A stretch of 64,000 bases of DNA, taken from Argyresthia goedartella. Taxonomy: Eukaryota; Arthropoda; Insecta; Lepidoptera; Argyresthiidae. The stretch spans positions 19,237,201 to 19,301,200 of the forward strand of contig OX463835.1 of the NCBI GenBank assembly GCA_949825045.1. The letters run 5' to 3'. Both the position numbers and the translations under genes were made by a program. Below the pieces are notes generated by a model that worked only from the letters and a program-made list of their open reading frames with translations, did not search any database and had not been told where the DNA came from. This document shows, in pieces, positions 2,523 through 24,232 of the stretch. Position 1 is the stretch's first letter. Every line of letters begins with the position of its first letter.

Positions 2523-3089
2523 TCAAAATACACCTTTATTAAATTGATACTCTTCCATCCAATTTCGTATAAGTAATACATGTTTTAATGCACATATTTT
2601 TTTGTGATTTATACACATCAAATCATTAAATTTAAGAATAGGATGATCCCACCAAACATCACCATTGACATGAATATTAGACTTAACATTATTATTATTA
2701 TTCTTATATCTTATTTCATCGAGAGTTTTTAAATTAGGACAACCCATTTCCTCAATATTAGTCACATTACAATCGATACAAAAATCCTTTACCCACTGGA
2801 TTTTTTCATTACCCTTCACAAATATTTCACAATTTTGTAGATATGGTTTTACAACTTTTTTGAACACGTGCATGTCAATAAATCCTTCTCTCCAGTAAAT
2901 ACCTCGATTTCTCTCAATCCAATTAACATGTTTTTTTTCAGCAGGTGTTAAAGATGAATAAGCAAAAGGTGGCTTAACTAAAAACATTTGTGTATAGTTG
3001 TTAGTAGCTAATGCGAATTCCTTCACGATAAAATCATTTTTATAGTCTTTGAATCCTTGCAAATCAACCACTAAGTATTGTTTCATCAT
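2523..3089 (-). CDS. Putative RNase H-fold/DEDDh exonuclease-like Maverick protein
   Basis: 188 aa, starting at the first of two adjacent ATGs. The start overlaps the stop of the capsid-like gene by ATGA. Visible features: N-terminal VVDLQGF, FIVKE at residues 24-28, KPPF, a VKPYL block followed by FVKGNEKIQWVKDF, and a C-terminal Cys/His-containing segment (MCINHKKICAL). Insect genomes contain many relatives of this type. The layout resembles a DEDDh exonuclease or Maelstrom-like fold, but the first acidic pair reads D-x-Q here, so catalysis is uncertain. A decayed homologue lies at 36000-36463. The function call is an inference from motif layout only. Confidence 0.5.
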   Translation of the reverse strand: MMKQYLVVDLQGFKDYKNDFIVKEFALATNNYTQMFLVKPPFAYSSLTPAEKKHVNWIERNRGIYWREGFIDMHVFKKVVKPYLQNCEIFVKGNEKIQWVKDFCIDCNVTNIEEMGCPNLKTLDEIRYKNNNNNVKSNIHVNGDVWWDHPILKFNDLMCINHKKICALKHVLLIRNWMEEYQFNKGVF

Positions 3090-4294
3090 GATATTTTCTT
3101 TACAATGCTCGTCAAAGGTTTATATTCAATCAAACAGTCGTTTATTATAAGACAGTAGGCACTAGTTTTAGCAGGTATTTCAGCTGTGGATTCAATTTCC
3201 ACACGTACATCTACTGGTCCAGTTTTAAGAGTTTCGTTTTGACGACAACAGTCAATTACAAATAAAGGTGCTTTAGTTTTGAACTCAGATGGACTAAGCA
3301 ACGGTTCACTCCGACGACCGTAATACGACTGTTGAAAGTTTATATATGCTTCATATATTAACGAGAACTTATCATGATTGAAATCCGTATTTAAACTCTC
3401 ATACGGATAATATACAGAATTAAGTAATACTTTAACATCACGTAGATTACAGTGATCGAATCGAGAAGCATCGACTGATCCGTTATTTCTCCGATTGGTT
3501 TGTAATCCTATTATTACATAGCGTGGCTTTTCTAATTGTGATGAAGTTTTTATTGCCCATGTATGTTTCGTAGTATTTGGTAAGAGTGGGTATTCATATA
3601 GATCCCAATTTCTAAACGAGATATTAATAGAACGATCTTTTTCCAAATATTTTAGTAAGTTGATTCTTTCTCTGTCTGATACCTTGATATGTGGGATTCG
3701 CCATAGTATTTTAGTAAGATCAAACTTTTCTAAAACTTCGTTGGTACTAAGCTGCATGGAATTCAAATTAGTATTACTTCTCAAAAGAACTAGTTCATGT
3801 TTACAATTGATCATTATTTTCTTATAGTCTTCAGCGAATCCTAAGATTTTGTTGAGTGGAATGTTAGCTGCGAAAGTTCCTCCTTTTACCTTGTTGCTAT
3901 CAACACTCCACCCCCAATTCTTGTTAGCATTGTTTTCCAACTCACTTAATGACAATAAAGACTTCATAGTTGTTGTGACACCCACATTTTTTACCTTGTC
4001 TATCTCAACTCCGTTTAACTCATATCGAATATCTTGGAAAAGGAATAGAAATGGATTATTTGTAAAATCCACGGATGGCATTACTTCTTTGGTAGAACTG
4101 TTAGTGACCTTAAGTGACCCTTCGATATAAAGTGAACTTTCGGATGGCAAAAGGTATAGATCTTGTTGATTGACAGGTATGCGGATTTCATCATTATTGT
4201 TGAAGCTGGCGATGTACGGTTTGTATGAATGAAACTGATAATTTTCGATACTATTATCGTATGTTAAAGGTTCCGATATGTTTAAAATATTCAT
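3086..4294 (-). CDS. Major capsid-like protein (F54H12.2-like family) of Maverick 1
   Basis: 402 aa, intact. It belongs to the family often labelled F54H12.2-like in animal genomes, carried by Maverick/adintovirus elements; its place in the virion gene block suggests a jelly-roll capsid subunit. Recognisable blocks are RIPVNQQDLYLLPSES, a region rich in beta-type segments, FRNWDLYEYPLLP, and a C-terminal IEYKPL. The second copy keeps the C-terminal half (36460-37226) with the same blocks. The start codon overlaps the stop of the 46-codon ORF (ATGA) and the stop overlaps the next start (ATGA). The alternative is a minor virion protein; no fold could be computed. Confidence 0.65.
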   Translation of the reverse strand: MNILNISEPLTYDNSIENYQFHSYKPYIASFNNNDEIRIPVNQQDLYLLPSESSLYIEGSLKVTNSSTKEVMPSVDFTNNPFLFLFQDIRYELNGVEIDKVKNVGVTTTMKSLLSLSELENNANKNWGWSVDSNKVKGGTFAANIPLNKILGFAEDYKKIMINCKHELVLLRSNTNLNSMQLSTNEVLEKFDLTKILWRIPHIKVSDRERINLLKYLEKDRSINISFRNWDLYEYPLLPNTTKHTWAIKTSSQLEKPRYVIIGLQTNRRNNGSVDASRFDHCNLRDVKVLLNSVYYPYESLNTDFNHDKFSLIYEAYINFQQSYYGRRSEPLLSPSEFKTKAPLFVIDCCRQNETLKTGPVDVRVEIESTAEIPAKTSAYCLIINDCLIEYKPLTSIVKKIS

Positions 4295-4431
4295 TTTATA
4301 ATTTTTAGTAATTTTAAAAAAATTTTATTTTCTTTCGACAGATTTCTTTGACGAGATGGTTTTTTCGTTATTTCTCGAGTGATACTAGATCGTTTTGGTG
4401 GTTGTGCAGGCTTTTTATTGAAATCAATCAT
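4291..4431 (-). CDS. Small basic ORF (46 codons) wedged between penton-like and capsid-like genes
   Basis: A 46-codon frame from the ATG at 4431 to a TGA at 4291-4293. It begins MIDFNKKP and is rich in Lys, Arg and Pro, with an IFLKLLKI hydrophobic tail. The ATG overlaps the penton-like stop and its TGA overlaps the capsid-like start, both as ATGA. The frame stays open about 20 codons upstream of the ATG inside the penton-like ORF. The size and charge recall small core or cement peptides of DNA viruses, but no family is recognised. The corresponding part of the second Maverick is deleted, so conservation cannot be tested here. Confidence 0.5.
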   Translation of the reverse strand: MIDFNKKPAQPPKRSSITREITKKPSRQRNLSKENKIFLKLLKIIK

Positions 4432-5099
4432 CTTTTCTTCAGGTGTAAATAGAGCTGGATCCCTTCTTTCCGGAAATTTATTAGATCGTTATTACCATCC
4501 AATATTCTAATAGTGATATTGTTCACACTCGTATGATTAACAGGAAAGTAAATAATATTTTTTGGGGTTTCTATAATTCTATAGCCTGGTGGTACGTTAG
4601 GCGCAAATTCATATATAATATGACTTGGTTCTCCGTTCACAAAAGATCCGCTTACGATATCACATTCGATTCGTACTATGGTTGTGGGTAGAATGCTGAT
4701 AGGAAAGTGCGAGTCATGCCATATATTGCTTTTTAACATCTCTTTCCCAAAACCTAAAATAGATCCAATAGAATTTTCTCTTTCAAAATGAATATCTTTA
4801 GAACAAAACAATTTTGTTGTTAAGGTATTATTGTTGCAGGTTAATTTTAAATCACAGTCTTTCACATTTTGTTTTAGAAAATCATTTATATCTTCAAGTT
4901 CATAGGAACCTTCAGGTATTTTAACATTTTCATCTTTACCATAGGAGAATGTATTGTTTCTATCATCTATATTTGGGATAGAATTAAATGTTGAAAAATA
5001 TAAAAGACCACATTCATAATTGCTATTGAGCTGCAAAGGTGGTGAATAGTATGTTGATAGAAAAGAATCATTTCCCGTAATAGATACTGTAAAGGACAT
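4428..5099 (-). CDS. Penton-like minor capsid protein of Maverick 1
   Basis: About 223 aa from the ATG at 5099 (MSFTVSI); an in-frame GTG 18 nt upstream is less likely as a start. The N-terminal pattern (TVSITGNDS, then PPLQL and YECGL) and the order protease, penton, capsid match the single-jelly-roll penton of adintoviruses and Mavericks. Mid-protein EGSYELEDINDFL is a typical block in this family. The stop TGA overlaps the ATG of the next small ORF. No counterpart survives in the second copy. Confidence 0.62.
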   Translation of the reverse strand: MSFTVSITGNDSFLSTYYSPPLQLNSNYECGLLYFSTFNSIPNIDDRNNTFSYGKDENVKIPEGSYELEDINDFLKQNVKDCDLKLTCNNNTLTTKLFCSKDIHFERENSIGSILGFGKEMLKSNIWHDSHFPISILPTTIVRIECDIVSGSFVNGEPSHIIYEFAPNVPPGYRIIETPKNIIYFPVNHTSVNNITIRILDGNNDLINFRKEGIQLYLHLKKR

Positions 5100-5135
5100 G
5101 ATGACAGTGATCACCAAAGTTTTGATACACGTTTT

Positions 5136-5507
5136 TTATAAATGTTTACTCCAAAATTGACGTAAAAATTTTATACATAAATGTCCACAATTTGAAGTGT
5201 TGTACGTCTGATACTGATTAAAGTTATAACAAATATTAACGTTTTGTAAATAATTTAAAAGTTCAAGTGGTGGTCTCAGATCACCAAAACTATCAAAATA
5301 TTCACAGTAGTTATTTATTTTTGCGTAAGCTACCCAATGAGTTCCAGGTCTATCTGAACTGTCTAAGTTAACAACTGCACATTCATATTTATATGTTTTT
5401 TCCGGAAGTCCATCCCTCATGAACACGCCTCGAAAAAACGGAATTTCCAATGTGAAGTCAATGATGTCCAGATTAGATAGTGGGCGAGATGGTAGCCTTT
5501 TCCTTAG
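5136..5507 (-). CDS. Adenain-like cysteine protease, probably made by -1 frameshift from the PLA2 ORF
   Basis: Catalytic landmarks of the adenovirus-type (C5) protease are present: His in GTHWVAY, Asp in YFDSFG, and Gln then Cys in QTYNTSNCGHLC. The first ATG of the frame is in FRGVFMRDG, yet sequence I recognise as conserved in this family (RPLSNLDIIDF, then EIPFFRGVF) lies upstream of it. That sequence is open back to 5507, inside the slippery heptamer of the upstream ORF. In adenoviruses this enzyme matures virion proteins. The frame is short (about 123 codons from the slip site) compared with roughly 200 for adenain, so it may depend on fusion to the upstream protein. Confidence 0.8.
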   Translation of the reverse strand, partial: LRKRLPSRPLSNLDIIDFTLEIPFFRGVFMRDGLPEKTYKYECAVVNLDSSDRPGTHWVAYAKINNYCEYFDSFGDLRPPLELLNYLQNVNICYNFNQYQTYNTSNCGHLCIKFLRQFWSKHL

Positions 5508-6229
5508 TTTTTTGTCTGACGAACAAACAATCCTTCACCTTTTTTATATGGTTTTATATAAAGACCTTTACCAATTGCAATAGATTCCATCATTTTATTA
5601 TGACGTTCGGATTCTTGTATTTTTTTTTTAGTTGATTGGTAATCGTTAACAGCTTTCGCTATACCAGCCGCACCGCCAGCTAATGATCCCAATGCTGAGA
5701 GTCCCGCAAATATCGGAATAAGAGGTAATATTCCACCAGTTTTTGGTATTGGTATAATTCTAGGTAGTTTCACTTGACAATTTTTTGGGAAACATTTTTT
5801 TGCTGCTAAATACATATATTTGATTGCAGATTTATTGCTCTTAGGTTTATATTTTTTTAATTTCGCTGTCAAACCTTTAACAATTTTTTTGAAGTGTTTA
5901 ACACCACCTCCTACTTTGACCTTAGTTTTCATCACTTTATTAACGAGCCAAGAAGCGATTTTTTCTCCTTTACTAGCATCTTTGGATCGCATCCGTTTCT
6001 TTGCCATATCGATTAATTGAATGTCAGCCTGTCTTCGATCTTCACTATTATTAGAAATGTATGCAATATCGTGTTGCATACAAGCGTTATCTAATTTGTT
6101 AACCCCCCTTTCTCCTCTGGCTAAACGTTTCCGTAAGCGTGTACCTGGACCACAGTACTGATAACCAGGTATATGTAACTCGAAAGGTAAATTATTTATT
6201 AAACTGTTAACAAGTCCTTCACTTTTCAT
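5504..6229 (-). CDS. Parvovirus-type phospholipase A2 / pVI-like minor capsid protein
   Basis: Start at the ATG 6229 (MKSEGLV); an in-frame GTG 9 nt upstream is less likely. Residues about 20-65 form a parvoviral VP1-type PLA2 domain: the calcium loop in CGPGTRL and the catalytic pair in ACMQHDIAY. A strongly basic stretch follows, then a glycine/alanine-rich hydrophobic segment around GLSALGSLAGGAAG as in adenovirus pVI-like proteins, and a terminal GLYIKPYKKGEGLF repeat-like motif. In related elements that last motif directly precedes the protease domain in one protein (from memory of the family), which fits the frameshift signal here. The likely role is membrane breach during entry. Confidence 0.75.
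   Translation of the reverse strand: MKSEGLVNSLINNLPFELHIPGYQYCGPGTRLRKRLARGERGVNKLDNACMQHDIAYISNNSEDRRQADIQLIDMAKKRMRSKDASKGEKIASWLVNKVMKTKVKVGGGVKHFKKIVKGLTAKLKKYKPKSNKSAIKYMYLAAKKCFPKNCQVKLPRIIPIPKTGGILPLIPIFAGLSALGSLAGGAAGIAKAVNDYQSTKKKIQESERHNKMMESIAIGKGLYIKPYKKGEGLFVRQTKN
5507..5513 (-). promoter_or_regulatory. -1 ribosomal frameshift heptamer A AAA AAC, directly before a TAA stop
   Basis: Read in the frame of the PLA2 ORF the - strand is ACA AAA AAC TAA. This contains the canonical X XXY YYZ heptamer A AAA AAC, the type used at the MMTV gag-pro junction, with the zero-frame stop as the next codon. Slipping back one base continues as CTA AGG AAA, which is exactly the protease frame and stays open to 5136. 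A downstream pseudoknot was not assessed. A simple one-base indel in the six-A run would give the same picture. Confidence 0.6.
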
Positions 6230-9829: not shown

Positions 9830-11545
9830 TTCCCTACTCATACTGTTTGAATGAAAATTATATTTTGCAGGTCTGATATTCAAAGGCACGCACTAACTGC
9901 AAAACATCAGGCTAAAATTAGAGCTTGCGCCCCAGGCGCCCAAAAAAGCGTCGTAGACATGTTTAGTAAAAAAACTACTCCTTTGGAGGACAAATTAAAA
10001 CATGCAGAAATAAAACTTGGAGGTTACTTTGCAGCCCATGACGAACCCTTTTCACGCATGGATCATCTTGTCGAGGTGTTAAAAGATATGTTTCCGGACT
10101 CAGATATAGCAAAATCTCTGGCTATGAAACGCACCAAAATAAAAGGCGTAATAATCAACGTTATTGGTGACGATGAAAAAGCGGTACTTACGGAAACATT
10201 ACGAAAAACAAAGTTTTCAATTTTAACTGATGAGTCAACAGATATTGCTTGTGTAAAGACAGCATGTATAATGGTACGGTTTTATGACGAATTCCAAGGG
10301 AGAATTGTAAGTCGTTTTTGGGAGCTGGAACAAGTTTTTAGTAAAAATGATCCGGCGGGCGCTGAAGTAGGTGCAACTGCTGCCCGACTTTATGAAGCAA
10401 TGATTACCACCTTCAAAAAACAACATTCCAATAGATAACATTATTGGTTTTGGATCCGATGGGTGCAATGTTATGATGGGAAATACAAATTCGGTTAAGA
10501 CCCGTATGATGGAGTTATGTCCTGGAATTCGCATTATGAAATGCATATGCCACTCCTTACACTTATGCGCAAGCGAAGCATGTAAAGGACTGCCGAGAAC
10601 TTGTGAAGACTTGGCAAGAAATTGTTACAATTTTTTGAAAAATTCTGCCAAACGACAGGCACAGTTTGCACAATTCCAAAAGTTTTTTCAGTTGGATGTG
10701 CTCAAATTGTTGCATCCAAGTCGGACAAGATGGCTTTCACTTACTTCAGTCATAGACCGCATGCTGGAAATGTGGGAACCACTGAAGTTATTTTTCGCTG
10801 ACAAATGTCTTACGGAGCGTCTGAAAATATCTGAAGATATTCATCGTGCTTTGTGTGACCCATTCGTGAAAGGATACTATTTGTTTTTACAATGGGTACT
10901 TCCAAAATTTACTCGGTTGAATGAATACTTCCAGTCTGAAAAAACTGTTGTAACAGTTGTACACGAAAGGATGGCGACTACATACACTTGAGTTTTTAAT
11001 GATGTATATGAAAAGTGATTATGTCTACCAGACTCCGATATCAGAAATCCAGCCGGATGATAGCAGCAAGTTCCTAGACATGAATCAGATTTACTTAGGA
11101 GTAGCCACTATGAGACAAATATCTACACCCGACGCAATGCAGAGAAGCGATATCATAGCCGATTTTCGGATGAAATGCCAAAAATTTCTCATTACATCCT
11201 GTCTTCAAATTAAAGCGAGGTTACACATATCCTGTTTTGTTTCTTTACTATATTTTTATTTAAAAAGAACACGTTCCACAATTCAAGTTTTTTTTTCAGA
11301 TATGATTTCGGGGATCCTGTCAAACTCAAACTCAAACTCAAAAGTACTTTATTACTGTAGATATTTACATATTCTTAGCAAACGTCATTTTTTGCCTCTT
11401 CTCTACATTGGACCACTGTGGGAGAAGAAGGGCGTAGAAACTCACACAGATTGATTTTTAGATCTCTTTTAAAAATAGGTTGTGCTTAACTAATACAATT
11501 ATGATTTATTTTTATTTAATAAGCTGGAATAAATAATTACAAAAT

Positions 11546-12090
11546 TGTTCAGGCTTCTCAGCACCTAATGACCTCGTAGGGGCCCATCAGCTACGAGGTA
11601 GCGTAACGATCAGTTGCCAAGAAGTGTGAACGTCGGCGATTCACCGAGCTGAAGTAATTGGGGTCGATCTAACCTGGTCTGTGCTTCGGTCCCGTCAACC
11701 TCCTGTCTCTCTGCAAGGCCCGGGTGCACCCTAGGCTCTTCTTGGTAGACAGGTTCTTCAGCCAACCTCCTATGACTGGCGGGCCAGCTTCAATGAGCAC
11801 AGTGTTCCAACACAGGTTATGTTACGTGGTAAAAACCAATCGGCCACGTAAATGCGAACTTTATCTGGTTCGGGGAACCACAACACACTCAGCTATATAG
11901 ACAATCCTGAGGGAAACCCGAATACATTCCAGATGGCTTGCGATTTAATTTCAATACCCTAACCAAAACGCGTTTACATTGCGAGGGCTTTCGTCTGTCA
12001 GTTGTCAAAAAACTGCTAGGTTGGCAGCAACGTCAAATTCAAAATGGCCGTTCAGAAACCATCGATCGAATATCGATTTGGAATCGAACA
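11546..12090 (-). repeat. BEL 3' LTR (left copy)
   Basis: 545 bp, same length as the right copy. Differences include TT/CT near 11555, G/T near 11573, a 4-base cluster near 11765-11772, and G/A near 12019. Preceded by the AAAAT duplication. Confidence 0.93.
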
Positions 12091-12122
12091 ATCACCCGCC
12101 CGGACAGGCACCCACCTGTCCC

Positions 12123-14168
12123 CTAATCTACGGGCAGCCGAGACAACGTTGCTACCGCTCGTTTTAGAACCGAGCCTCCTACTAGAACCTCTGCAGACCG
12201 GGGGGTCCCGTCCTTGCCAGGGAACAAGTTAACAATGCGCCCCCTGCGCCAACGTAGTGGCGGTAGGTTAGCATCCTTAACCAGAACGAGGTCACCAACA
12301 CTAGGGGGGCTGGTTTTGTCAGTCCACTTAAGGCGCTGTTGTAAGATATGCAGATACTCGAGCGACCAACGCTTCCAGAAATTCTGAGTAAACTGCTGCA
12401 ACATCTGATACCTTGACAACCGATACAATTTCACTCCCTCGAAGGGGTGCTCGGGCAACGCGTTAAGTGGCTGTCCTATCAAGAAATGGCCTGGGGTCAG
12501 AGCCTCCAGGTCATTTGGATCCGAGCTGAGCGGACACAACGGTCGCGAATTGAGAACGGCCTCGATCTTACAAAACAATGTCGCGAGCTCCTCAAAAGTC
12601 AGCGCGGTCTGACCTACTATACGCCCCAAGTGCGTCTTAGCTGACTTAACTACGGCCTCAAAAATCCCACCCCAGTGGGGGCAAATCGGTGGGCTGAAGG
12701 TCCACTGTATACCCCGACGGGAGAGGGCCGTTCCAATATCCACTTTATTTACATTCAAAAAGTTGACTATCTCTCGTAAGTATCGTTCCGCACCGATGTA
12801 GTTAGTGCCGTTATCAGAGCGGATCAAAGTTGGAAGTCCCCTTCGAGAAACAAACCTATCCAAACAAGCAATGAAAGCTTCTGTCGAGAGATCAGCAACG
12901 AGCTCGAGATGTACCGCCTTGGTGGATAAACAAACAAACACACATAGGTACGCCTTGTATTGCCTAGCGGTACGCAATCGTGAACTCTTCACCATAAACG
13001 GTCCTGCAAAATCCGTACCAACACCTGAAAACGGTCTGACCTCATTCACACGATCAGGGGGCAAGTCCCCCATGAGAGGTTGCATCGTGGCAGCCTTAAG
13101 TCGATAACAAGGCATGCACCGAAACACGATGTTCCGTATGACACGGCAGGCAGATAAGATCCAAAACTCCCGCTGGAGCGTGGCCAACAACGCGTTACAG
13201 CCGGCATGCGCGTTTTTAATATGACGATCAGTCACCAGCAATTCAACTAACTGTCCCCCCTTGGGGAGCAGAAGTGGGTGAAGAGCCGAATACGACAGAT
13301 TCGCATTGCGCAATCTCCCTCCTACCCGAAGTAACCCGGTCGAATCAACAAAGGGGTTGAGACGCGCGACGGCTCCCTTCATCCTACGCTCCATCGACAT
13401 CAATCTCGTCTCAGCCATCTTCCTAGATTCTCCTAGTGGCGGTCGATCGGCCCTGAAAGGCAGTCGAGTTACAAAACGACCAGAACGAAGGCGACCAGTA
13501 CTATTCTGGTAAAACAACTCGCACTCTTCTTCGTCTGCGTCGACTCGACGAACGGTGGGAGGTTCCTCTATCTCCCAGAAACGTTGGATAGCGTCTGACA
13601 ACGCTGAGCCAATAAGTATGCCATCTGACTCGGCAGGCCTAACCATTGGCAATGCCGGACCCATGATCACGTGACCAAACTTAGTATCCACAGCAATCAA
13701 CCCGTCCGGCTGAAGAACTCGCCGATCCGACAACAGAAACCTACCCAGAACGTCTGCTCCCAGTAGCAGGTCGACCGGGGCTGGAGTGTCAAAATCGGGA
13801 TCCGCCAACTTGAGTCCTGATGTCAGGAATCGAACGGCCGGATTCAACTTCACCAAGGGGTGTCTGCCCATGACATGCGTCATTACTAAAGCTTGCAAGG
13901 ATGTTTTTGTCAAAATGTCATAACGTGGAGAGAACGTGATCACCGATTGACCAACTACATTCGTAACCGTAACATTCCCCACGCCCCGTATTGATTTATT
14001 ATACCTATTTACCTTGAGGCCCAACCATTTTGCTAAATCATTCGATACAATGCAGCCCTGAGCTCCAGAATCTAATAGGGCGCGAACGTATGTTGGGTTG
14101 CCCGCCAAATCCCAAACAAGCACAGAGGCGATCGGTAACACCACCGTCTCCGGTTGGGGGGCAACCAA
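12123..14168 (-). CDS. BEL/Pao pol: aspartic protease and integrase with RT/RNase H deleted in frame
   Basis: A 681-residue frame following gag after one UAG. The aspartic protease carries LLDSGAQGC; GADVLGRF follows. A linker with LGESRKMAETRL, which in intact BEL elements precedes the RT, is followed within a few residues by ARLNPFVDSTGLLRVGGRL, which normally comes after RNase H, just before the integrase. Roughly 700 residues are therefore missing without breaking the frame. The integrase keeps its zinc motif (H and H near NAHAG, CMPCY), D in GTDFAGP, D in RSDNGTNY and E in IFEAVVK. It could not reverse transcribe itself and would need help from an intact relative. Confidence 0.85.
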   Translation of the reverse strand: MVAPQPETVVLPIASVLVWDLAGNPTYVRALLDSGAQGCIVSNDLAKWLGLKVNRYNKSIRGVGNVTVTNVVGQSVITFSPRYDILTKTSLQALVMTHVMGRHPLVKLNPAVRFLTSGLKLADPDFDTPAPVDLLLGADVLGRFLLSDRRVLQPDGLIAVDTKFGHVIMGPALPMVRPAESDGILIGSALSDAIQRFWEIEEPPTVRRVDADEEECELFYQNSTGRLRSGRFVTRLPFRADRPPLGESRKMAETRLMSMERRMKGAVARLNPFVDSTGLLRVGGRLRNANLSYSALHPLLLPKGGQLVELLVTDRHIKNAHAGCNALLATLQREFWILSACRVIRNIVFRCMPCYRLKAATMQPLMGDLPPDRVNEVRPFSGVGTDFAGPFMVKSSRLRTARQYKAYLCVFVCLSTKAVHLELVADLSTEAFIACLDRFVSRRGLPTLIRSDNGTNYIGAERYLREIVNFLNVNKVDIGTALSRRGIQWTFSPPICPHWGGIFEAVVKSAKTHLGRIVGQTALTFEELATLFCKIEAVLNSRPLCPLSSDPNDLEALTPGHFLIGQPLNALPEHPFEGVKLYRLSRYQMLQQFTQNFWKRWSLEYLHILQQRLKWTDKTSPPSVGDLVLVKDANLPPLRWRRGRIVNLFPGKDGTPRSAEVLVGGSVLKRAVATLSRLPVD

Positions 14169-14186
14169 TGGTTGGGCCGCAAATTC

Positions 14187-15902
14187 CTAGCGAGGACCCC
14201 CGGGGCCCCACTGTGCCTGTAACCGATCAGGTATGCAGCTATACGCCAGAGGGTCCCATTGTACAAATGGCCCACGCGCCGGTTCCATTCCCAACCTACG
14301 ATTCCCCGTAAAGGGGGGTGGGCGTGAATTCAACCGTGGCCGCTCCATGAGCGGGGGGGACATCACATGTGACCGACGAGGACGAGGCGACGAGCGGGGC
14401 GACAACTGAGGCGGCGTCCGAACCGCACCCGCATAGCTCGAAGGTGTCCCATGCCACCCGCCCGTTACGGCCTGCTCAACACACCCAATGTCCCACTGGG
14501 TCGGATGCTGAGTCGCAACCGAAAACTCAGGGCCCCCCATGTAATGGTCCTGAGTGCGGCCCTGCACCCTGGTACTGCCCTGTGCACGTGGGGACGTTGG
14601 CCCCTGAGTTGCGCTCCGAGTCGCAAACGAATTCTCAGGGCCCCATGCCGTGTCACCCTGGATACGGCCCTGTGGAGGCTGTTGGCCGGACCGGTTCATG
14701 CACAACAGATTGTTGTGGGCCCCACCACAATATCCGCACATTTTTGTGCCCGTGCAGTCCCTAGTCATGTGTGGCCCGAGGCACAGGAAACACCAGCTCC
14801 GCTGCTTGGCCATCCGGCGCCGTCCCTGAACCCTAAGTTCCCCGAACTTATTGCAATTGGCCACAGCATGGCCAATCTGCCTACAACATGGGCAGGTCTC
14901 ACCATGTGGGGTCAATTCACTCACAGTCCCATACGACTGCCGGTTGGTGCGGTCCTTCTTCGTCGGAGGGCCCCTACTCACAGCGCTCCCGGCAGCTCTC
15001 TGTGGCTCCGAAGGATGGGTGACCGTCAACCCCAAATTCTCTGCCCGTCGAGCCTCCTCTTCCAAGAATCCGACCAAGTCGGAGAAGGCGGGCAGGTCCT
15101 CGGCCGACCTCCCGTGAGACTGTTCGAAACGAGTCTGCACGTCAGCGGGTAGGCGGGAAAGTACAATGTACAACAGTAGGTACGACCATTCACCAACCGG
15201 AAGTCCAAGATTCTCTAGAGCCTTGGTGACGGACAACAATGGGTTCAAAACCTCCGTCTGTATGGCCCCGACCTTGTTCACAACCGGGATACTAAACAAA
15301 CGGTTCAGTTGGGCATCGGCCAACCTCCGTTTGTTATGGTAACGTCTGACCAACAATTGTCTGGCCGTTTCATAGTTACCCTCCGTAACTGTCAAATGAG
15401 CGACCAGCTCCCTAGGCTCACCCCTCAATGCTGCCACCAGCTGAGCCATCTTGACAGACTTGGTAATGTCCGATCGCATGTGCACCAAACTGTCGAACAG
15501 ATTGATGAAGCTCATCCATTCACCGGACACTCCGTCAAAAGTAGGCATAGTTATGGCAGGTAACCTGGACCCCGAACCCTGAAGCGGCAGAGGTGCTTCA
15601 ATGTCACCACCATGGCTGGACTCGCGCTGTCTACGTATGTCCGCAGCCTTCTGCGTATTAGCAGCTGCCATCTCCATACATTGGTCGACATCCCCTATCA
15701 ACCGTGACAGCCTGTCAGGTGCGCAGCCATCAACTGATTCCGCCTGCGCGGACAATTCGAGCACCCTATTGTAACGTTCCTTAACGTCCATAGACCGCTC
15801 CAATACCACATCATGCCTATCTAAACGGTCTATCAGACCGTGTGCGGAGGAAAACCATCTGAGTTCCTTAGAAACACCCTTCTGGATTTCAGATAACGAC
15901 AT
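14187..15902 (-). CDS. BEL/Pao gag with zinc knuckles
   Basis: 571 aa, intact. The N-terminal half has the DUF1759-type capsid pattern of BEL gags (ALPLQG region, ITMPTFDGV, WMSFINLFDSLVH). A Cys/His cluster at about residues 335-400 includes CFLCLGPHMTRDC and CGYCGGAHNNLLC. The C-terminus is Pro/Gly/Arg-rich. It ends with UAG, and pol continues in the same frame six codons before its first counted residue, so gag and pol differ by a single in-frame stop. Confidence 0.85.
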   Translation of the reverse strand: MSLSEIQKGVSKELRWFSSAHGLIDRLDRHDVVLERSMDVKERYNRVLELSAQAESVDGCAPDRLSRLIGDVDQCMEMAAANTQKAADIRRQRESSHGGDIEAPLPLQGSGSRLPAITMPTFDGVSGEWMSFINLFDSLVHMRSDITKSVKMAQLVAALRGEPRELVAHLTVTEGNYETARQLLVRRYHNKRRLADAQLNRLFSIPVVNKVGAIQTEVLNPLLSVTKALENLGLPVGEWSYLLLYIVLSRLPADVQTRFEQSHGRSAEDLPAFSDLVGFLEEEARRAENLGLTVTHPSEPQRAAGSAVSRGPPTKKDRTNRQSYGTVSELTPHGETCPCCRQIGHAVANCNKFGELRVQGRRRMAKQRSWCFLCLGPHMTRDCTGTKMCGYCGGAHNNLLCMNRSGQQPPQGRIQGDTAWGPENSFATRSATQGPTSPRAQGSTRVQGRTQDHYMGGPEFSVATQHPTQWDIGCVEQAVTGGWHGTPSSYAGAVRTPPQLSPRSSPRPRRSHVMSPPLMERPRLNSRPPPFTGNRRLGMEPARGPFVQWDPLAYSCIPDRLQAQWGPGGPR

Positions 15903-16433
15903 GATCGGAACGATACTTACTCACAATTTGCAGTAACTCAATTTTATTGGACCCTACAGTCTACAACCCAAACGAGGGAACCCTAAACCACAACTTAAAC
16001 AATGTTGTTTTCTTTAAACAATAGGAACCGAGTTTTATATCTATATAAATTCTGTAAATACAATTTAGTTTCCCTTTATCATTATAACACACACAGATAG
16101 TCAATATTAGTTCAAGTTATAAATTGCTATAAACTGAAAACAATGTAATAGCCTGCTATCAATAGATGTAACTACCTATGTTAACCAAACATTCATTCAA
16201 TAGCACTACTAGACCACTAATAGATTGACTAACTGGTAATTCAATTCAATATCTGTCTATCTACTACCAGCAATAGACCTATAGCTTACAATACTACCAA
16301 TCTATGTGGATATAGGAACACAACCAAGTTACCTAATAACCGCCTATACCTACAGATTGATAGTCCCAAATCGTGCCTTCCTGGAGCCCTTGACGGCTGA
16401 AAATCTCAGGAAGCCACGCTCTAGCTACCAAAC

Positions 16434-16978
16434 TGTTCAGGCTCCTCAGCACCTAATGACCTCGTAGTGGCCCATCAGCTACGAGGTAGCGTAACGATCA
16501 GTTGCCAAGAAGTGTGAACGTCGGCGATTCACCGAGCTGAAGTAATTGGGGTCGATCTAACCTGGTCTGTGCTTCGGTCCCGTCAACCTCCTGTCTCTCT
16601 GCAAGGCCCGGGTGCACCCTAGGCTCTTCTTGGTAGACAGGTTCTTCAGCCAACCAGGTACGACTGGCGGGCCAGCTTCGATGAGCACAGTGTTCCAACA
16701 CAGGTTATGTTACGTGGTAAAAACCAATCGGCCACGTAAATGCGAACTTTATCTGGTTCGGGGAACCACAACACACTCAGCTATATAGACAATCCTGAGG
16801 GAAACCCGAATACATTCCAGATGGCTTGCGATTTAATTTCAATACCCTAACCAAAACGCGTTTACATTGCGAGGGCTTTCGTCTGTCAGTTGTCAAAAAA
16901 CTGCTAGATTGGCAGCAACGTCAAATTCAAAATGGCCGTTCAGAAACCATCGATCGAATATCGATTTGGAATCGAACA
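16434..16978 (-). repeat. BEL 5' LTR (right copy)
   Basis: 545 bp, matched to the left LTR at about 98.5% by eye. It is followed by the AAAAT duplication at 16979-16983 and then by LINE1 3'UTR. Confidence 0.93.
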
Positions 16979-17013
16979 AAAATTATTAACAGCAAGGTCT
17001 GTGTTGAGCCAGA

Positions 17014-19730
17014 TTAACCCCATACAGTCCTGTCATTTAAGTAATCTTGAACATTGTAATATCCCTTTTTCGACAAAGTCGCTTTAACATGCTTTTTAAA
17101 TTGCTCAAATGGCAAATTCAAAATCTCCAGAGGTATCTTATTGTAGTAGAGAATGCACTGACCCTTGAAAGAATTGCTAACCTTCGCGAGTCTAAAACGG
17201 GGCGCACATAGTCTATGATTATTTCTTAGGTAAACATTACAGCTATCGCTAAGTTTGGAAAATGTTGTAAGGTTCTTGCGTACATACATTATATTTTCGA
17301 AAATAAATTGACTAGCTACTGTTAGTATGTCAATTTCTTTAAAAAGCTCTCTTAAGGAGTCTGTTCGTTTTAAATTATAAATTGCTCGAATAGCTCTTTT
17401 CTGTAAAATAAAAATAGTTTGAATATCCGCTGCTTTCCCCCACAACAAGATATATAGGACATCACACTATGAAAGTAACTAAAATATACTAGCCTAGATG
17501 TAGCCACATCCGTGCTTTGTCTGATGTTCCTAACAGCGTAAGCCGCAGAACTTAATTTACCAGCCAATTTATCTATGTGGGGTCCCCACTGCAATTTGCT
17601 ATCAATGGTTATTCCAAGAAACTTCGTATCATTTACTAATTCTAACGTGCTGTTGTCTAACACTAAACTGGTCTCAACTTGCCTGACATTTGGAAGTGAA
17701 AATTTGATACACTTGGTTTTACCAGCGTTTAACAATAAATTATTAACTGTGAACCAATTCAAGGTTAAAGACAATACACCATTAACATCATCAAATTCTC
17801 CTTTTTGTCTTTCAATTTTGAAGACCAGTGAAGTATCATCAGCAAACAACACTATGTCAGTTAATTTCTCCACCATGAAAGGCAGATCATTAATATATAC
17901 CAGGAATAAGAAAGGGCCTAATATGGAACCTTGTGGAACGCCCATTTTAACACCCGATCCATCAGATTTTATGCCGTTAACTTCTGCCTTTTGAATTCTA
18001 TTGCTTAGGTATGATCTTAGTAGATCCAACGCTTTATTTCTAACTCCGTAATGATTTAATTTAATTAATAGCGTATTATGATCAACACAATCAAACGCCT
18101 TCGACAGGTCGCAAAAAACTCCGATAGCATCCTGTCCGGCCTCCCATGCAGAATAAATATGAGATATAAGGGTAATACCTGCATCCGTAGTCGATTTACC
18201 CCTAGTGAAACCGTATTGTTTGGCATGGAGTTATTTTGTACGGTTGAAGTGTGAGAGCATTTGATTGAGTATAATCTTTTCAAATATTTTACTTAGTGTT
18301 GGAAGAACAGATATTGGTCTGAAATTTGAAGGATCACCCTTATCTCCCGACTTGAACAGAGGTATCAGTTTACTGTGTTTCATGAGGTCTGGGAAAGCCC
18401 CATCGTCAACACATTTATTGAATATATAAGCTAAGTGTGGGGCTATAACTAGAATTACTGAACCAATGACTTTGACTGATATACCCCACAGGTCTTCCGT
18501 ATTTTTTAAGTTAAGTAATTTAAACGTTTTGACAATGTCCTGGGGATATACATGATGAAATTTTAAATGTACATCACTGGCGCTAGTGTTATTTTTTAAT
18601 AAAGTCTCTGCTTCATATGGAGATGAATTTAGACGGTCTGTTGTGAGTAAGGGTACATTGGTGAAGAATGTTTCAAAAGCTCGAGCAACATCAGCGCTGG
18701 ATTTAACAACATCATCACCTATCTTTAGGCAGAAATCATTGTCCCTTGGTATAACTTTGCCAGTTTCGCGGTTTATTATTTGCCAAACTGTTTTCATTCT
18801 ATTATTTGAATTTTGAATTTTTCTATTAATGTGTAAAGTTTTTGCAGTTCTACAAACCAACTTGAAAGTTTGGGAATATTTTTTAACGTAGTCATGAAAT
18901 TTTCGATCAAAGTTATAGGTTTTTTGTTCATAAAGGTCATATAAGATAACTCTACTTTTACGAATTCCAAACGTTGCCCAGTCATTAAATTTAGATTTAC
19001 CGTTGTAGTCACTGACTTTCTTTAATTTAAAAACTTTATTGAATTCTGTCTGAATAATGCTGAAGAAGTCTGAGTAGATTTTGTTTGGGTTCTGTTCATC
19101 AAAATCCGGTACTGGCAAATTTATATCTAACTTTTTCATATACGTCTCTAGTCTATGGGATGTAATAGGCCTATAAAATGATAGATCAGTCCTATTTTTA
19201 CTGGCAATTGGAAATGAAACTGTTTGACCACTGTGATCGGAGGGTAAGCAGTTAATTACATTTTTACTTCTGAATGCACAGTCACAAAATACGTTATCTA
19301 AGCAAGTTTGGCTGGTAAGTGTAATTCTAGTCGGCTCTAGAAATATATGACATAAATTAAATGATTTGAACAGAGTTATTAATCGTTGTTTCAATGTTGT
19401 ATCTACAAGCAAATCTACATTAAAATCGCCACAAATAATTAACTTTTTTCTGTTATTACAAAGTATAATGAGGGCATCCTCCATAATTTTCTCGAACATT
19501 TCAAAATTGACATGGCCGTTTTCATCTCTCGGAGGTCTTTAGACACAAACAATAATATGGCTATCCAACTCAACACAGGATACCTCTATTTGTCTTTCTA
19601 CAGTAAGTGCAAGAATATCTTTCCGTTGTTTCACCTTAATATTATTTTTTACTAAGATTAAAGAACCACCTCTATCGGCAGTCTTTCTATTGTAACAACT
19701 GACAATTTTGTAATTATTTATGTCAAAAAA
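17014..19730 (-). pseudogene. LINE1 ORF2: endonuclease (part) and reverse transcriptase, CR1-group
   Basis: The EN part (19730 to about 19230) shows RGGSLILVKNN and CGDFNVDLL, followed by NVFCDCAF and LPSDHSG. RT motifs follow: FRPISVLPTLSKIFEK, VPQGSILGPFLF, and the catalytic LFADDTSLVF. The C-terminus reads RAIYNLKRTDSLRE and ends before 17014. Disabling changes include a stop in EN near 19541 (just before RPPRDENG), a frameshift around 18230, and one near 17450. The frame meets the LINE2 insertion at 19730. Confidence 0.8.
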
Positions 19731-21905
19731 TCAAAATCAAAAAATCAAAATCAAAAATCATTTATTTCCATAGGATGTTGTTACATCACTTAGATCCGTC
19801 ATTACATTTTTTTGGGTGAGTTCACTAACCCAATGGCGGAATCTGTGGAGAAGAGCTCACCGAAGAAACTCCACAGTCGTCGCATCTTTTGCGTTTCCTT
19901 TTTTAAATAAAATATTGTCAAATTACAAAATGAATGCTAATTATATATCGAAACAGCCTGTTACTCAAACAATCTATTCCCATGGACATCTGTCCTCTAA
20001 GTAGTCAGATATCCTGTAGTAACCTTTTTTTTACAATTTCTGTTTTATTATTATTTTAAACTTGTCTAAAGGTAAGTTTTTAATATCAGTAGGGACCTTA
20101 TTGTAATAGCGTATACAATTGCCTTTAAAAGAATTACTAATTTTATGTAGTCGGCTTACATAAGCAACCAACTTGTCTTTATTTCTAGTATTAAAATTGT
20201 GTATATCACTGTACTTCTGAAAATTAATTATATTTCTTTTTACATACACAAGATTGTCATAGATATATTGAGACACAAATGTCAGAATATTGATTTCTTT
20301 AAACTTTTCCCTCAGTGACACTCTAGGCCCTAATCTATAAATTGCACGAACAGCCCGTTTCTGCAGAATAAATATACTATTAGCATTCGCAGCGTGACCC
20401 CACAATAAAATACCATAGGTCATTAGACTATGAAAGTAACTAAAGTAGACTAGTCTAGCGGTGTCTACGTCGGTAAGAGCTCTAATTTTTTTAACTGCGA
20501 ACGCTGCCGAACTCAGTCTGTTCGACAATTTATTTATATGAGGATCCCATTGTAGTTTGGCGTCTAAAGTAATGCCCAAAAAGACAGTCGACTGCACAAG
20601 GTCCAATCTCTGTCCTTTTATAAATATGTCTGTAGTTACCGGGTTCACATTGGGTAACACGAATTTAATACATTTAGTTTTCTTTTCATTAAGTAATAAA
20701 TTGTTAACAGTAAACCAGTTCACTATACTAGAGATAGCATTGTTTACCTCGTCATAATTTGATTGCTGTCTTTTAACTTTAAATATCAAAGAAGTATCAT
20801 CGGCAAACAATACTAACCCATGTTTTGCTTTAACAAGGTAAGGTAAATCATTAATATATACTAAAAACAAGAAAGGACCAAGAATTGAACCTTGCGGTAC
20901 GCCCATACTTATTGAAGACCCAGGTGATCTTTTCCCATTAACATCGACCATCTGAACCCTATCTGTTAGATATGACTCCAGAAGGCCAAGTGCCTGATCT
21001 TTTACACCATAATGGCGTAACTTCCTGACAAGAGTGTCATGATGGACGCAATCAAAAGCCTTGGATAGATCGCAGAAGACACCTATTGCATCCATTGCGT
21101 CTTCCCAGGCATCAAAAATATTGTCGATTAGTTCAACACCAGCATCGGCTGTTGAACGACCCTTTGTGAAACCAAACTGAGCAATATGAATTAAATTATT
21201 GAGATAAAAATGACTTTGCAATTGATTAAGTATGAGTTTTTCAAATATTTTGCTAAGCGTTGGTAGTATCGATATGGGCCTAAAATTGGTGGGGTCTGAT
21301 GTACTACCAGCTTTGAATAAAGGTATAACTTTACTTAGTTTCATCAAGTCAGGAAACACACCACTATCTATACATTGATTAAATATACAACAAAGGTGAG
21401 GTGCAATACAATCTACAATGGAACTAATAATTTTTACTGATAGACCATGGGCGTCAGCTGTCTTTTTCATTTCCAGGGATTTAAACGCTTTTACAATGTC
21501 TTCATTATTTACGTGCCTAAATTTAAAATCTGTTTTACATTCCTCAAAGTTTTGTTTAAGTATAGATTCAGCAGCAGCGGGAGATGAATTTAAAGACTTG
21601 GTTGTTGAAACTGGAATGTCCGTAAAGAAATTTTCGAAAGCTTTTGCTACTTCTAGGTCTGTACTTAGCAATTGATTATCTATCTTAAGCTTGAAGTTAT
21701 TATGTGTAGCTTTGGCCTTTCCAGTCTCTCTGTTTATAATTTGCCAAGTCGTTTTCATTACATTGCTACTAGATTCAATTTTGTTTTTAATGAAATTAGA
21801 TTTAGCTACGGCACAAACGCGTTTAAACATTTTTGAATAACTACGAACATAATCTAGAAAGGCCGTATTTTTGTTATATGATTTCTCTTCATAGAGTTCA
21901 TTCAT
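19731..21905 (-). mobile_element. LINE2: 5'-truncated CR1-group LINE inserted in LINE1 endonuclease
   Basis: Its 3' end is a GATTTT-type repeat (19731-19767). Its 5' end lies in the EN-RT linker near 21905, and it holds one long RT frame. Insertion split LINE1 between TCTTTT and GACATA, with only a short T-run shared at the junctions, so no clear target duplication. Between 19768 and 20030 is its 3'UTR, with no credible coding. Confidence 0.78.
20031..21905 (-). CDS. LINE2 reverse transcriptase (endonuclease missing)
   Basis: 624 codons, uninterrupted. RT landmarks: FRPISILPTLSKIFEK, FTKGRSTADAG, VFCDLSKAFDCV, MGVPQGSILGPF, the catalytic LVLFADDTSLIF, and FLGITLDAKLQW. The C-terminal region has GILLWGHAANANSIF and RAIYRLG. 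The open frame indicates a younger insertion than LINE1. Without EN it is a dead-on-arrival copy. Clade CR1/Daphne-like is inferred from motif wording. Confidence 0.8.
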   Translation of the reverse strand: MNELYEEKSYNKNTAFLDYVRSYSKMFKRVCAVAKSNFIKNKIESSSNVMKTTWQIINRETGKAKATHNNFKLKIDNQLLSTDLEVAKAFENFFTDIPVSTTKSLNSSPAAAESILKQNFEECKTDFKFRHVNNEDIVKAFKSLEMKKTADAHGLSVKIISSIVDCIAPHLCCIFNQCIDSGVFPDLMKLSKVIPLFKAGSTSDPTNFRPISILPTLSKIFEKLILNQLQSHFYLNNLIHIAQFGFTKGRSTADAGVELIDNIFDAWEDAMDAIGVFCDLSKAFDCVHHDTLVRKLRHYGVKDQALGLLESYLTDRVQMVDVNGKRSPGSSISMGVPQGSILGPFLFLVYINDLPYLVKAKHGLVLFADDTSLIFKVKRQQSNYDEVNNAISSIVNWFTVNNLLLNEKKTKCIKFVLPNVNPVTTDIFIKGQRLDLVQSTVFLGITLDAKLQWDPHINKLSNRLSSAAFAVKKIRALTDVDTARLVYFSYFHSLMTYGILLWGHAANANSIFILQKRAVRAIYRLGPRVSLREKFKEINILTFVSQYIYDNLVYVKRNIINFQKYSDIHNFNTRNKDKLVAYVSRLHKISNSFKGNCIRYYNKVPTDIKNLPLDKFKIIIKQKL

Positions 21906-22140
21906 TCATTAAAAGACATCATATTTTCCTTTAACCAGTGTTCTGTAATACAAATAACATCGGTGTCTGAATGATTAAGAAATAATTCTAATACAAGTTC
22001 TTTGCCAGGTAGCCCCTGCATGTTTTGATGGGAAATATTTAAGTGGGGCTTACCCTTTGTCCTAGTATTTTTCATTTGATTGCCAGAAAACCCCTGCTTA
22101 TTTTGTAAAATTTTCTTATGTTTTGAGGGGTCCTCTTTTG
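21906..22140 (-). pseudogene. LINE1 endonuclease start
   Basis: On - this reads an apurinic-endonuclease N-terminus: HQNMQGLPGKELVLELF, then VICITEHWLKE. It stops abruptly at the LINE2 boundary and continues in the LINE1 sequence at 19730. The strand and order show that ORF1 at 22150-24232 and ORF2 at 17014-19730 are one element. Confidence 0.75.
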
Positions 22141-22149
22141 TCGAACTAT

Positions 22150-24232
22150 CTAGTTTAAAACACTACTATTAGTACTAATACTAACTAAAACTGAAGGCGA
22201 CTGCGTTATAGTATTTACAACTGTGTCGCATATATTATACGCTAACAATGTAGCTACTCGTTTTTTTGTTTTATGAGACAGGTACATAGTATCCTGAGTC
22301 AAAGTAAAGTTATGAATAAAATTATTCATGTCGAAATATAAAATAGCATCACTATGATGACACGTTATATTGTATAGATGCATGTTCATTCTATGTACAC
22401 TTTTATTTTGTTTCCCCGATAAATTAGAACAATAAGGAAAGTTACATAGAATAAACTTGCACTTCGTCTTATTATATAAATTGAGCAGTACCTCTATACC
22501 GGTATCTAATGCACTCCGACTAATGTTTGAGTGGTTTCCTACCATAATAACAATGGTAGTATTTTCATCAAAATTCCCTACAGCTACCTTTTTTATAATA
22601 TCCTCAAAGGACAATTAGGACAACAATTATTTGTCACTTGTTGCTTAAGGCCATAATGCAAAAACATACCAAAATCTACACCTATCTTATCTGAACTACA
22701 GTTCTTTTGTTTGCTATTGTTCTTCTCGGAGCACGATTTGAGGTGAGTGGCGGGACACTCGTGTTGGAGTGCGGTGCGATGCACGTGCCAGCGGGCGGCG
22801 CGGCAGTCGCGGTAGCGAGCGGTGCAACGCGTGTAACGGCGAGCGGCGCGGCCCTCGCGGCAGCGTGCAGCATGACACACGACTCAGCAGGCAGCGCGAC
22901 ACGCGCGTCACTTAACGGCGCGGCGCTCGCGCTGATGAGCTGTGAGGTGCCTCCTCGACGACGACGGTGACGCTGTTTCTTGGTCGGGACAGCAGTGGGC
23001 GTTGCAACACTCACGTTGAGGGGGGTCAAGACCAGAGTTTGTGATGTGGGCTCATCCTTCTTGCTGGTGTCATCCTCCTTGCTGGTCTCATCCTCCTCGT
23101 CCTCAATTAGAATGCCTACCAATTCCGCGTTCTGGCGTTGTAGTTGTAGCAGCTCAGATGTTGCAGCTCTGAGTTCGACTAGCTCACTCTGTTCTTTGGC
23201 ATAACATTGGAGTGCGTTTGACAGGAGGTCACGTAGATGCTGGATTTCTATTCGGGCATCTTGGAGCTCTGACTGTAAACCTACATTTTCAGCCTCCAAC
23301 TCCACCGGTGGTGTGTTACCTGTGTCAGATGTGATGATGGTGACCTCTCTGGCGGTAATCTCGAAGGGAGCGGTGTTAGGCTCGACCTCAGATACCGGGC
23401 AGTTCTTGTGAAGGCATTGTTGTGATTGTTGCGAAAGCTCGTGTACTCTCTGTAAATTTGTGTTGCTGTCTGCTATTATTTTATCTAGTTCTATTATTTG
23501 TTCTGCTTCTGATTGTGAGTAAGCAGTAGCCATATTTTGCATTTCAATCTCGAGTTGCGATATTTTCAGCTCTAAATCAGTGACTATTTTCTGATACTCT
23601 TCAGTTCTTTCCTGTAGCAATCTTGAAAATCCTGATTTTTTATTATTTTCCGGTGTCTGGCAACTGTTAAGCTTCTGTAGCCGGTTCCGGGTCTGGACAA
23701 TAGCTTAACTTATTTTTCTGGATTTTTTAAAGTATTTTCTTGTTTTTAACAGCGGTGTAGTTTTCTTATTAGTACTTGTTAAGTCATTTATTATTGGTTT
23801 TGGCTGCTGTGTTGGAGTCAAATGAATTTGCCCGACCAACTCATGGTACAGAGAGATATTTTTTTCTGTGTCTTCCTCAGCCTTTTGGTCTATCAGCTGT
23901 TGTATACTTTGATTTGCTTCTTGTAACTGTTGTTCAAGCGATGATATTCTCTGAAGGCTCAACTCGTGAGTATGGTAGCACTCGTCAAGTGAGTCTAACA
24001 GATTTCTAAACTGGTCTCTTTCCGCACAGGCATCGACCCAATCACTATGCAGCTGGCTTAACTGGCTTTTAAGATTCTTATTTGAGATAAGAATTTTCTC
24101 AATCTCAAGTTCACTGTCAGCTCTCTCTTGTTCATATTTAGCATTTAGTTCTCTTGAGGCCAAAAGATCTTGAAGAGCGTTGTGAAGCTGCAGTGCGAAC
24201 TCAGCTCTGCGCGTTGTCATCTTGGACACCAT
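22150..24232 (-). pseudogene. LINE1 ORF1: coiled coil plus SGNH/esterase-like domain, frameshifted
   Basis: Three frames form one gene. 23705-24232 starts MVSKMTTRRAEF and is a long coiled coil ending near LHLTPTQQ. 22682-23620 continues a glutamate/glutamine-rich coiled coil and then a basic RHRRRRGG patch and an alanine/proline-rich part. 22150-22614 contains an SGNH-like block with VGNHSNIS and ILYFDMNNFIH. A coiled coil with an esterase domain is typical of some CR1-group ORF1 proteins. The start is shared in pattern with the ORF1 at 63155. Frame breaks near 23700 and 22650 disable it. Confidence 0.68.

Follow-up and report, generated by a model that had tools for sequence, protein, structure and literature searches.

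A conserved candidate site for programmed -1 frameshifting between the PLA2X-like and adenain-like protease genes of Mavericks in the genome of Argyresthia goedartella

The retroviral gag-pro and gag-pol junctions offer the closest described parallel to the locus reported here, and MMTV gag-pro is a -1 frameshift using the same heptamer, A_AAA_AAC. The junction between the PLA2X-like gene and the protease gene of a Maverick resembles them in the kind and phase of its heptamer, in a stop at or near that heptamer, and in a structural gene upstream with a maturation protease downstream in the -1 frame. It differs in that the Maverick is a dsDNA element, its protease is an adenain-type cysteine rather than an aspartic protease, the upstream protein is PLA2X rather than the major capsid protein, and no structure was found downstream. 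In adenoviruses pVI and adenain are separate genes, the tail of pVI serving as a cofactor, whereas in the Maverick the two genes are joined by frame overlap.

Frameshifting has been raised for the same virus group in a few sentences of a preprint, where slippery sequences are predicted by KnotInFrame for some Penton ORFs of adintoviruses, and "a similar relationship" is proposed for potential Hexon-Adenain ("Hexain") fusions (PMC11071296). In the second pair adenain again comes downstream; the upstream genes are others, and PLA2X-adenain is absent from the section concerned. For the same two genes in insect Mavericks, the passages on Sf Mavericks treat CAP (PLA2) and PRO as separate ORFs, and both mentions of "frameshift" there concern errantiviruses (PMC5803895); P0220, labelled Spodoptera frugiperda CAP, ends PKN. 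The module order given for vertebrates (integrase, minor capsid protein, PW, major capsid protein, protease; PMC8097293) would place the protease elsewhere than beside PLA2X, its neighbour here. In the relevant passages of PMC10120064, PMC8363768 and PMC12567637 the word "frameshift" has other senses. In the papers covered by a full-text literature search, the original adintovirus description not among them, no report of PLA2X-protease frameshifting was found. An earlier note on this DNA had known of no such case in Mavericks; this stands for the present gene pair and needs qualifying for adintoviruses, where the passages of PMC11071296 raise frameshifting for other pairs.

The junction and its element

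The window, by which we mean the whole analysed stretch of 64,000 nucleotides, carries on its minus strand a Maverick block comprising an A32-like ATPase, small ORFs, an integrase, a PLA2X-like ORF, an adenain-like protease, a penton-like ORF and a double-jelly-roll (DJR) MCP. An rve integrase with a chromodomain (the Chromo match lies below cut-off), a DJR capsid protein, an A32-like ATPase and an adenain together mark it as a Maverick/Polinton of the adintovirus type. The penton-like ORF has no Pfam match, and our name for it is presumptive, taken from its position in the block. Between this ORF and the MCP lies a basic small ORF of 46 aa (4291-4431, minus strand), whose ATG overlaps the penton stop as ATGA and whose stop overlaps the MCP ATG; the MCP stop and the start of the next ORF again overlap as ATGA (3086-3089, minus strand). 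Beyond the Maverick block, ORFs at 9851-24232 resemble other transposable elements. The features of the junction are as follows.

5504..6229, minus strand: PLA2X-like ORF, ATG at 6229-6227 (PF08398, E 9.5e-13)
5515 to 5504, minus strand: PLA2X-protease junction ACA AAA AAC TAA, the end of the PLA2X ORF
5513-5507, minus strand: slippery heptamer A_AAA_AAC in zero-frame phase
5506-5504, minus strand: zero-frame stop TAA of PLA2X, adjoining the heptamer
5535..5537, minus strand: stop closing the protease (-1) frame upstream of the heptamer, the frame being open from 5534
5136..5507, minus strand: adenain-like cysteine protease in its putative post-shift reading, first codon CTA at 5507-5505
5421..5507, minus strand: coding stretch from the heptamer to the first in-frame ATG, with selection on the -1 frame and structured in the model
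5420-5418, minus strand: earliest ATG in the protease frame, within the conserved FRGVFM motif and 22 residues into the predicted domain
5138-5136, minus strand: protease stop codon

The sequence ACA AAA AAC at 5515-5507 has the X_XXY_YYZ form of a -1 frameshift signal. The earlier note had placed the heptamer directly before the zero-frame stop, with the -1 frame leading into an adenain-like protease, and both statements are borne out, the frame running open from 5534 to the stop at 5138-5136. The PLA2X-like ORF consists of a phospholipase A2-like domain and a C-terminal part that we assume to be pVI-like; a relative, P0360, is the named PLA2X of Spodoptera moth adintovirus 2.

Conservation among host copies and database relatives

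Taken singly, the heptamer is only mildly unusual in such AT-rich DNA: AAAAAAC occurs 55 times in the window against 36 expected, slippery-looking in-phase heptamers are present in all nine scanned ORFs of the gene block, and a Markov-1 simulation gives a 0.7% chance of an in-phase A_AAA_AAC within the 33-nt overlap zone. The evidential weight therefore lies in conservation, and copies in the host genome (1.1 Gb, 89 contigs) settle the question of chance or decay. Out of 585 candidate matches to the junction DNA, 40 were scored, and 17 of the 40 (the window copy among them) are identical across 1,105 nt. All 40 (L002-L041) were read through the junction, together with 70 further loci (L042-L111), mostly picked to span families from protein searches with P0220, P0211 and P0066 (150 scored in each, of 787, 780 and 655 candidates respectively), a sample neither random nor independent.

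A_AAA_AAC is found in 108 of the 110 junctions fetched, across about eight lineages. It stands in register with the protease anchor in 102 of the 108; in four (L019, L022, L026, L035) the first anchor pattern missed, and two (L106, L107) have a later indel. The two copies without it have lost one A (L023) or the whole junction by deletion (L099), and L033 keeps the heptamer and has lost the stop. A recognisable protease start is present in 109 of the 110 copies, and only L099 is fused, through its deletion across the junction. Grouped by eye on open-frame length and sequence, the lineages read at the junction as follows.

Family A (the window): ACA AAA AAC TAA or TGA
Family G: ATA AAA AAC TAA
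Family B: TCA AAA AAC TGT TAA
Families B' and C: TCA AAA AAC TAA TG, giving TAATG
Family D: TCA AAA AAC TAA TAA
Family E: TCA AAA AAC TAA TAA
Family F: CAA AAA AAC TAA
L109: GCA AAA AAC TAA

The codon before the heptamer-phase AAA varies by lineage yet always ends in A, the heptamer following six different NNA codons among the fetched copies. The zero-frame stop in relatives is TAA, TGA or, in family B, where it is shifted and the heptamer retained, TGT TAA; CAA occurs in L033 alone. The heptamer is kept although AAC is the rarer Asn codon: counted over ten representatives, the PLA2X ORF has AAT 72 times and AAC 30 times for Asn, and AAA 209 times and AAG 54 times for Lys. Several Maverick families are present in the host genome, with tens of equal-score rows that suggest recent activity of more than one lineage. 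In family F the ORF (429-947 of L092, minus strand) has no phospholipase part, the C-terminal part and the heptamer being retained; among its listed database relatives, many likewise measure about 150-195 aa and have no PF08398.

Database relatives of PLA2X carry the same signature at the protein level. Among the best 120 of 2,263 for the window query and the best 120 of 832 for the family F query, 227 of 240 end in Lys-Asn-stop, that is, 116 and 111 in the two sets (the remaining four of the window set read SKNVQ, SKNM, SKNC and SKNL). In P0314, P0328, P0352 and P0353 the KN is present with its stop displaced, and five of the 240 (P0252, P0313, P0341, P0351, P0359) have no terminal KN. KN falls within the last eight residues in 232 of the 240 listed, and in all 232 the residue before it is one that has an NNA codon; at the seven positions further upstream, residues without such a codon number 62, 44, 18, 189, 13, 7 and 52 of 232. 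A nucleotide-level constraint is thus visible through the proteins. None of these 240 listed relatives exceeds 279 aa, so that there is no continuous PLA2X-protease ORF among them, with ORFs of up to 420 aa listable in the window set and up to 301 aa in the family F set, the latter a bound that would miss most fusions containing the phospholipase part. The earlier note had looked to related copies for a decision, a kept heptamer with separate frames speaking for a frameshift and a continuous ORF in most of them against it; the comparison came out for the former, in the host copies and the listed relatives alike.

An M-x-G-x-G start, which to our eye resembles the adenain cleavage consensus, was seen in 93 of the 120 listed window-set relatives and in none of the 120 of the family F set; the window PLA2X itself starts M-K-S-E-G (6215-6229, minus strand). 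Scans of viral contigs with single proteins or alignments, and a tblastn search of phage records, found no relative. A scan of genome contigs gave one broken PLA2X fragment, 50% identical, accompanied by integrase-like ORFs in a contig labelled as an Oscillospiraceae MAG (L001), with no junction seen in the part examined; this is probably eukaryotic contamination.

A second candidate, at the 3' end of the penton ORF (4428-5102, minus strand), did not fare as well. An in-phase A_AAT_TTC lies 45 nt before its stop with the -1 frame open beyond, and L121, of the window family, has a similar A_AAT_TTT and a -1 frame that stays open as far as the penton stop. The penton end was matched in 11 of 16 stretches (the window, L002, L042, L071, L112-L117 and L121) and unmatched in L118-L120, L122 and L123. 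Because the -1 frame is stopped before the penton end in families B, D and F, and family E has an open frame without the heptamer, a frameshift here is unsupported outside family A. In families A, B, D, E and F, the copies examined all have a small ORF starting with an ATG that overlaps the stop of the penton ORF.

The protease frame and the routes into it

The protease matches PF00770 (peptidase C5) at 21.3 bits, equal to the cut-off, and its predicted structure has the adenain fold. H66, Q109 and C116, which we take to be the catalytic His, Gln and Cys of adenain, are invariant in 53 protease sequences. Mean pLDDT in the model is 53 over residues 1-10, which end with the heptamer-coded KKL, and 83-97 in the blocks that follow. 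Model residue 17 aligns with residue 1 of adenain, and model residue 39 is the first ATG; on this model, a protease begun at that ATG would lack 22 residues at the beginning of the fold. The stretch at 5421..5507 (minus strand) encodes helix 1 and most of strand 1 of the predicted fold.

The -1 frame is under coding selection from the heptamer onward. Twelve representatives were named for this comparison; the motif pattern, which required the heptamer, dropped L021 and L077. Between heptamer and first ATG (87 nt), the -1 frame of the ten has no stops, as against 1-5 in each of the other frames, and mean pairwise amino-acid identity is 0.638 in the -1 frame, 0.353 in the 0 frame and 0.328 in the +1 frame. 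Pairwise differences at codon positions 1, 2 and 3 of the -1 frame number 327, 230 and 744, the pairs not being independent. A rougher tally that took in copies of every age, decayed ones and L042-L071 included, agrees in direction, with 16, 17 and 32 distinct changes by codon position. The -1 codons before the heptamer differ between lineages; only A, G and L101 resemble one another there, as do B and B' in part.

How ribosomes reach this frame admits several explanations. Next to a frameshift, the strongest, though we consider it improbable, is that of a plain overlapping gene or of termination-reinitiation, with the protease starting at an ATG near the PLA2X stop that the window family would have lost. 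TAATG stands exactly at the PLA2X stop in B', C and L101, and family E has a protease-frame ATG five codons before the A-run. The earlier note had held that the conserved N-terminal region lies upstream of every ATG in its frame; this is so in the window family, D and G, and fails in B', C, E, L101 and, far upstream, F, where an in-frame ATG precedes the region. The best evidence for reinitiation comes from database proteases, where 49 of the 120 listed (of 1,072) are recorded as starting within four residues of LPxR. A further 29 are recorded from an internal MRD-type methionine and 17 from a methionine between LPxRxL and FRGVFM; 25 start further upstream, and 23 of these contain Lys-Lys-Leu, the -1 reading of the heptamer. 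Such scatter fits chance ATGs in a region normally entered another way. The ATGA overlaps at the penton/small ORF, small ORF/MCP and MCP/next ORF junctions also speak for reinitiation in this element, a stop-start layout of this kind being typical of coupled termination-reinitiation. These junctions are at the same time an internal control for the frameshift reading: at the PLA2X-protease junction of the window the genes overlap without a start codon, and the heptamer is in its place.

Against reinitiation, families A, D and G have no ATG ahead of the FRGV[FY]M motif, yet A has its 17 identical copies and D makes up 77 of the 150 rows scored in one protein search (nine D copies were read). In family D a TAA stands in the protease frame two codons before the A-run, so that the frame can be reached only at ATC AAA AAA; in L108, whose PLA2X frame has decayed, a protease-frame stop directly precedes the run. 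A start at the first ATG would sacrifice the opening of the fold, and the conservation of A_AAA_AAC would be left without a reason. The TAATG lineages may use both frameshifting and reinitiation.

Somewhat less probable again is transcriptional slippage, by which RNA polymerase would add or drop an A in the run and some mRNAs would encode the fusion directly. The same A-run would yield the same fused product, and the run is seven As long in family F and eight in L108; many listed family F relatives end KKN or KKKN, consistent with longer runs. In the window family, however, the run amounts to just six As with a C on either side, and the kept codon phase and following C (AAC, not AAT) in the fetched copies fit tRNA slippage better, since a polymerase does not read phase. 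We give little credence to non-AUG initiation of the protease inside the short -1 stretch: family D would have one codon only before the A-run in which to begin, and the sequence preceding the run is unlike between lineages. An indel artefact or pseudogene, in which a single ORF is broken by a one-base change or an assembly error, would suit the often degraded state of Maverick copies and the decayed singles L023, L033 and L099, and is dismissed because of the 17 identical copies and the heptamer in 108 of 110 junctions, to which the KN-stop of 227 of 240 listed relatives may be added.

Downstream stimulatory structures are usual for -1 frameshift signals, though not universal, and the earlier note had suggested folding the downstream sequence for a pseudoknot. 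Neither a pseudoknot nor a conserved stem was found there by comparison with shuffles, helix search or RNAalifold, pseudoknots not being energy-modelled. Folding downstream of the heptamer gave z of 0.02, 0.69 and -0.14 at three lengths in the window copy and 1.85 in L020, not unusual against shuffles or other windows of the element. No conserved helix of at least 4 bp was present (control mean 0.76), and RNAalifold gave -1.9 kcal/mol with no two-sided changes. A stop adjoining a slip site may itself cause a ribosome to pause, and such a pause could stand in for a pseudoknot.

Proposed mechanism and its implications

We read the junction as a programmed -1 ribosomal frameshift site producing a PLA2X-protease fusion, in the manner of gag-pro and within a dsDNA element, and on the sequence comparisons above we put the probability of this at roughly 87%. 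Most ribosomes would terminate PLA2X at the stop adjoining A_AAA_AAC. A minority would slip back by one base on the A-run, with the Lys and Asn codons in the ribosome, bypass the stop and continue through the protease in the -1 frame. The fusion would supply small amounts of the maturation protease, presumably at a low protease-to-capsid ratio, and, through its link to a virion protein, would bring it into the particle. The sequence analysis itself gives the sites, the frames, their conservation, the selection on the -1 frame and the predicted protease fold; the slippage, its rate, the presence of PLA2X in the virion and the purpose of the fusion are what we infer from this arrangement.

More tentatively, and at somewhat short of even odds, insect Mavericks and adintoviruses may as a group follow a retrovirus-like gag-pro strategy, in which a conserved A_AAA_AAC slip yields a minority PLA2X-adenain fusion that delivers the protease in cis on the pVI-like tail. 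Delivery, dose and possibly activation would then be set by one frameshift.

The immediate consequence concerns annotation: 29 of the 120 protease relatives listed have an internal ATG as their recorded start, and these records, which lack the first helix and strand, are to be corrected. To our knowledge, programmed -1 frameshifting has rarely been documented in eukaryotic dsDNA viruses. A conserved site of this kind would mean that retroviruses and an adenovirus-like lineage have converged on one way of dosing and packaging the maturation protease, and the junction bears on whether Mavericks form particles.
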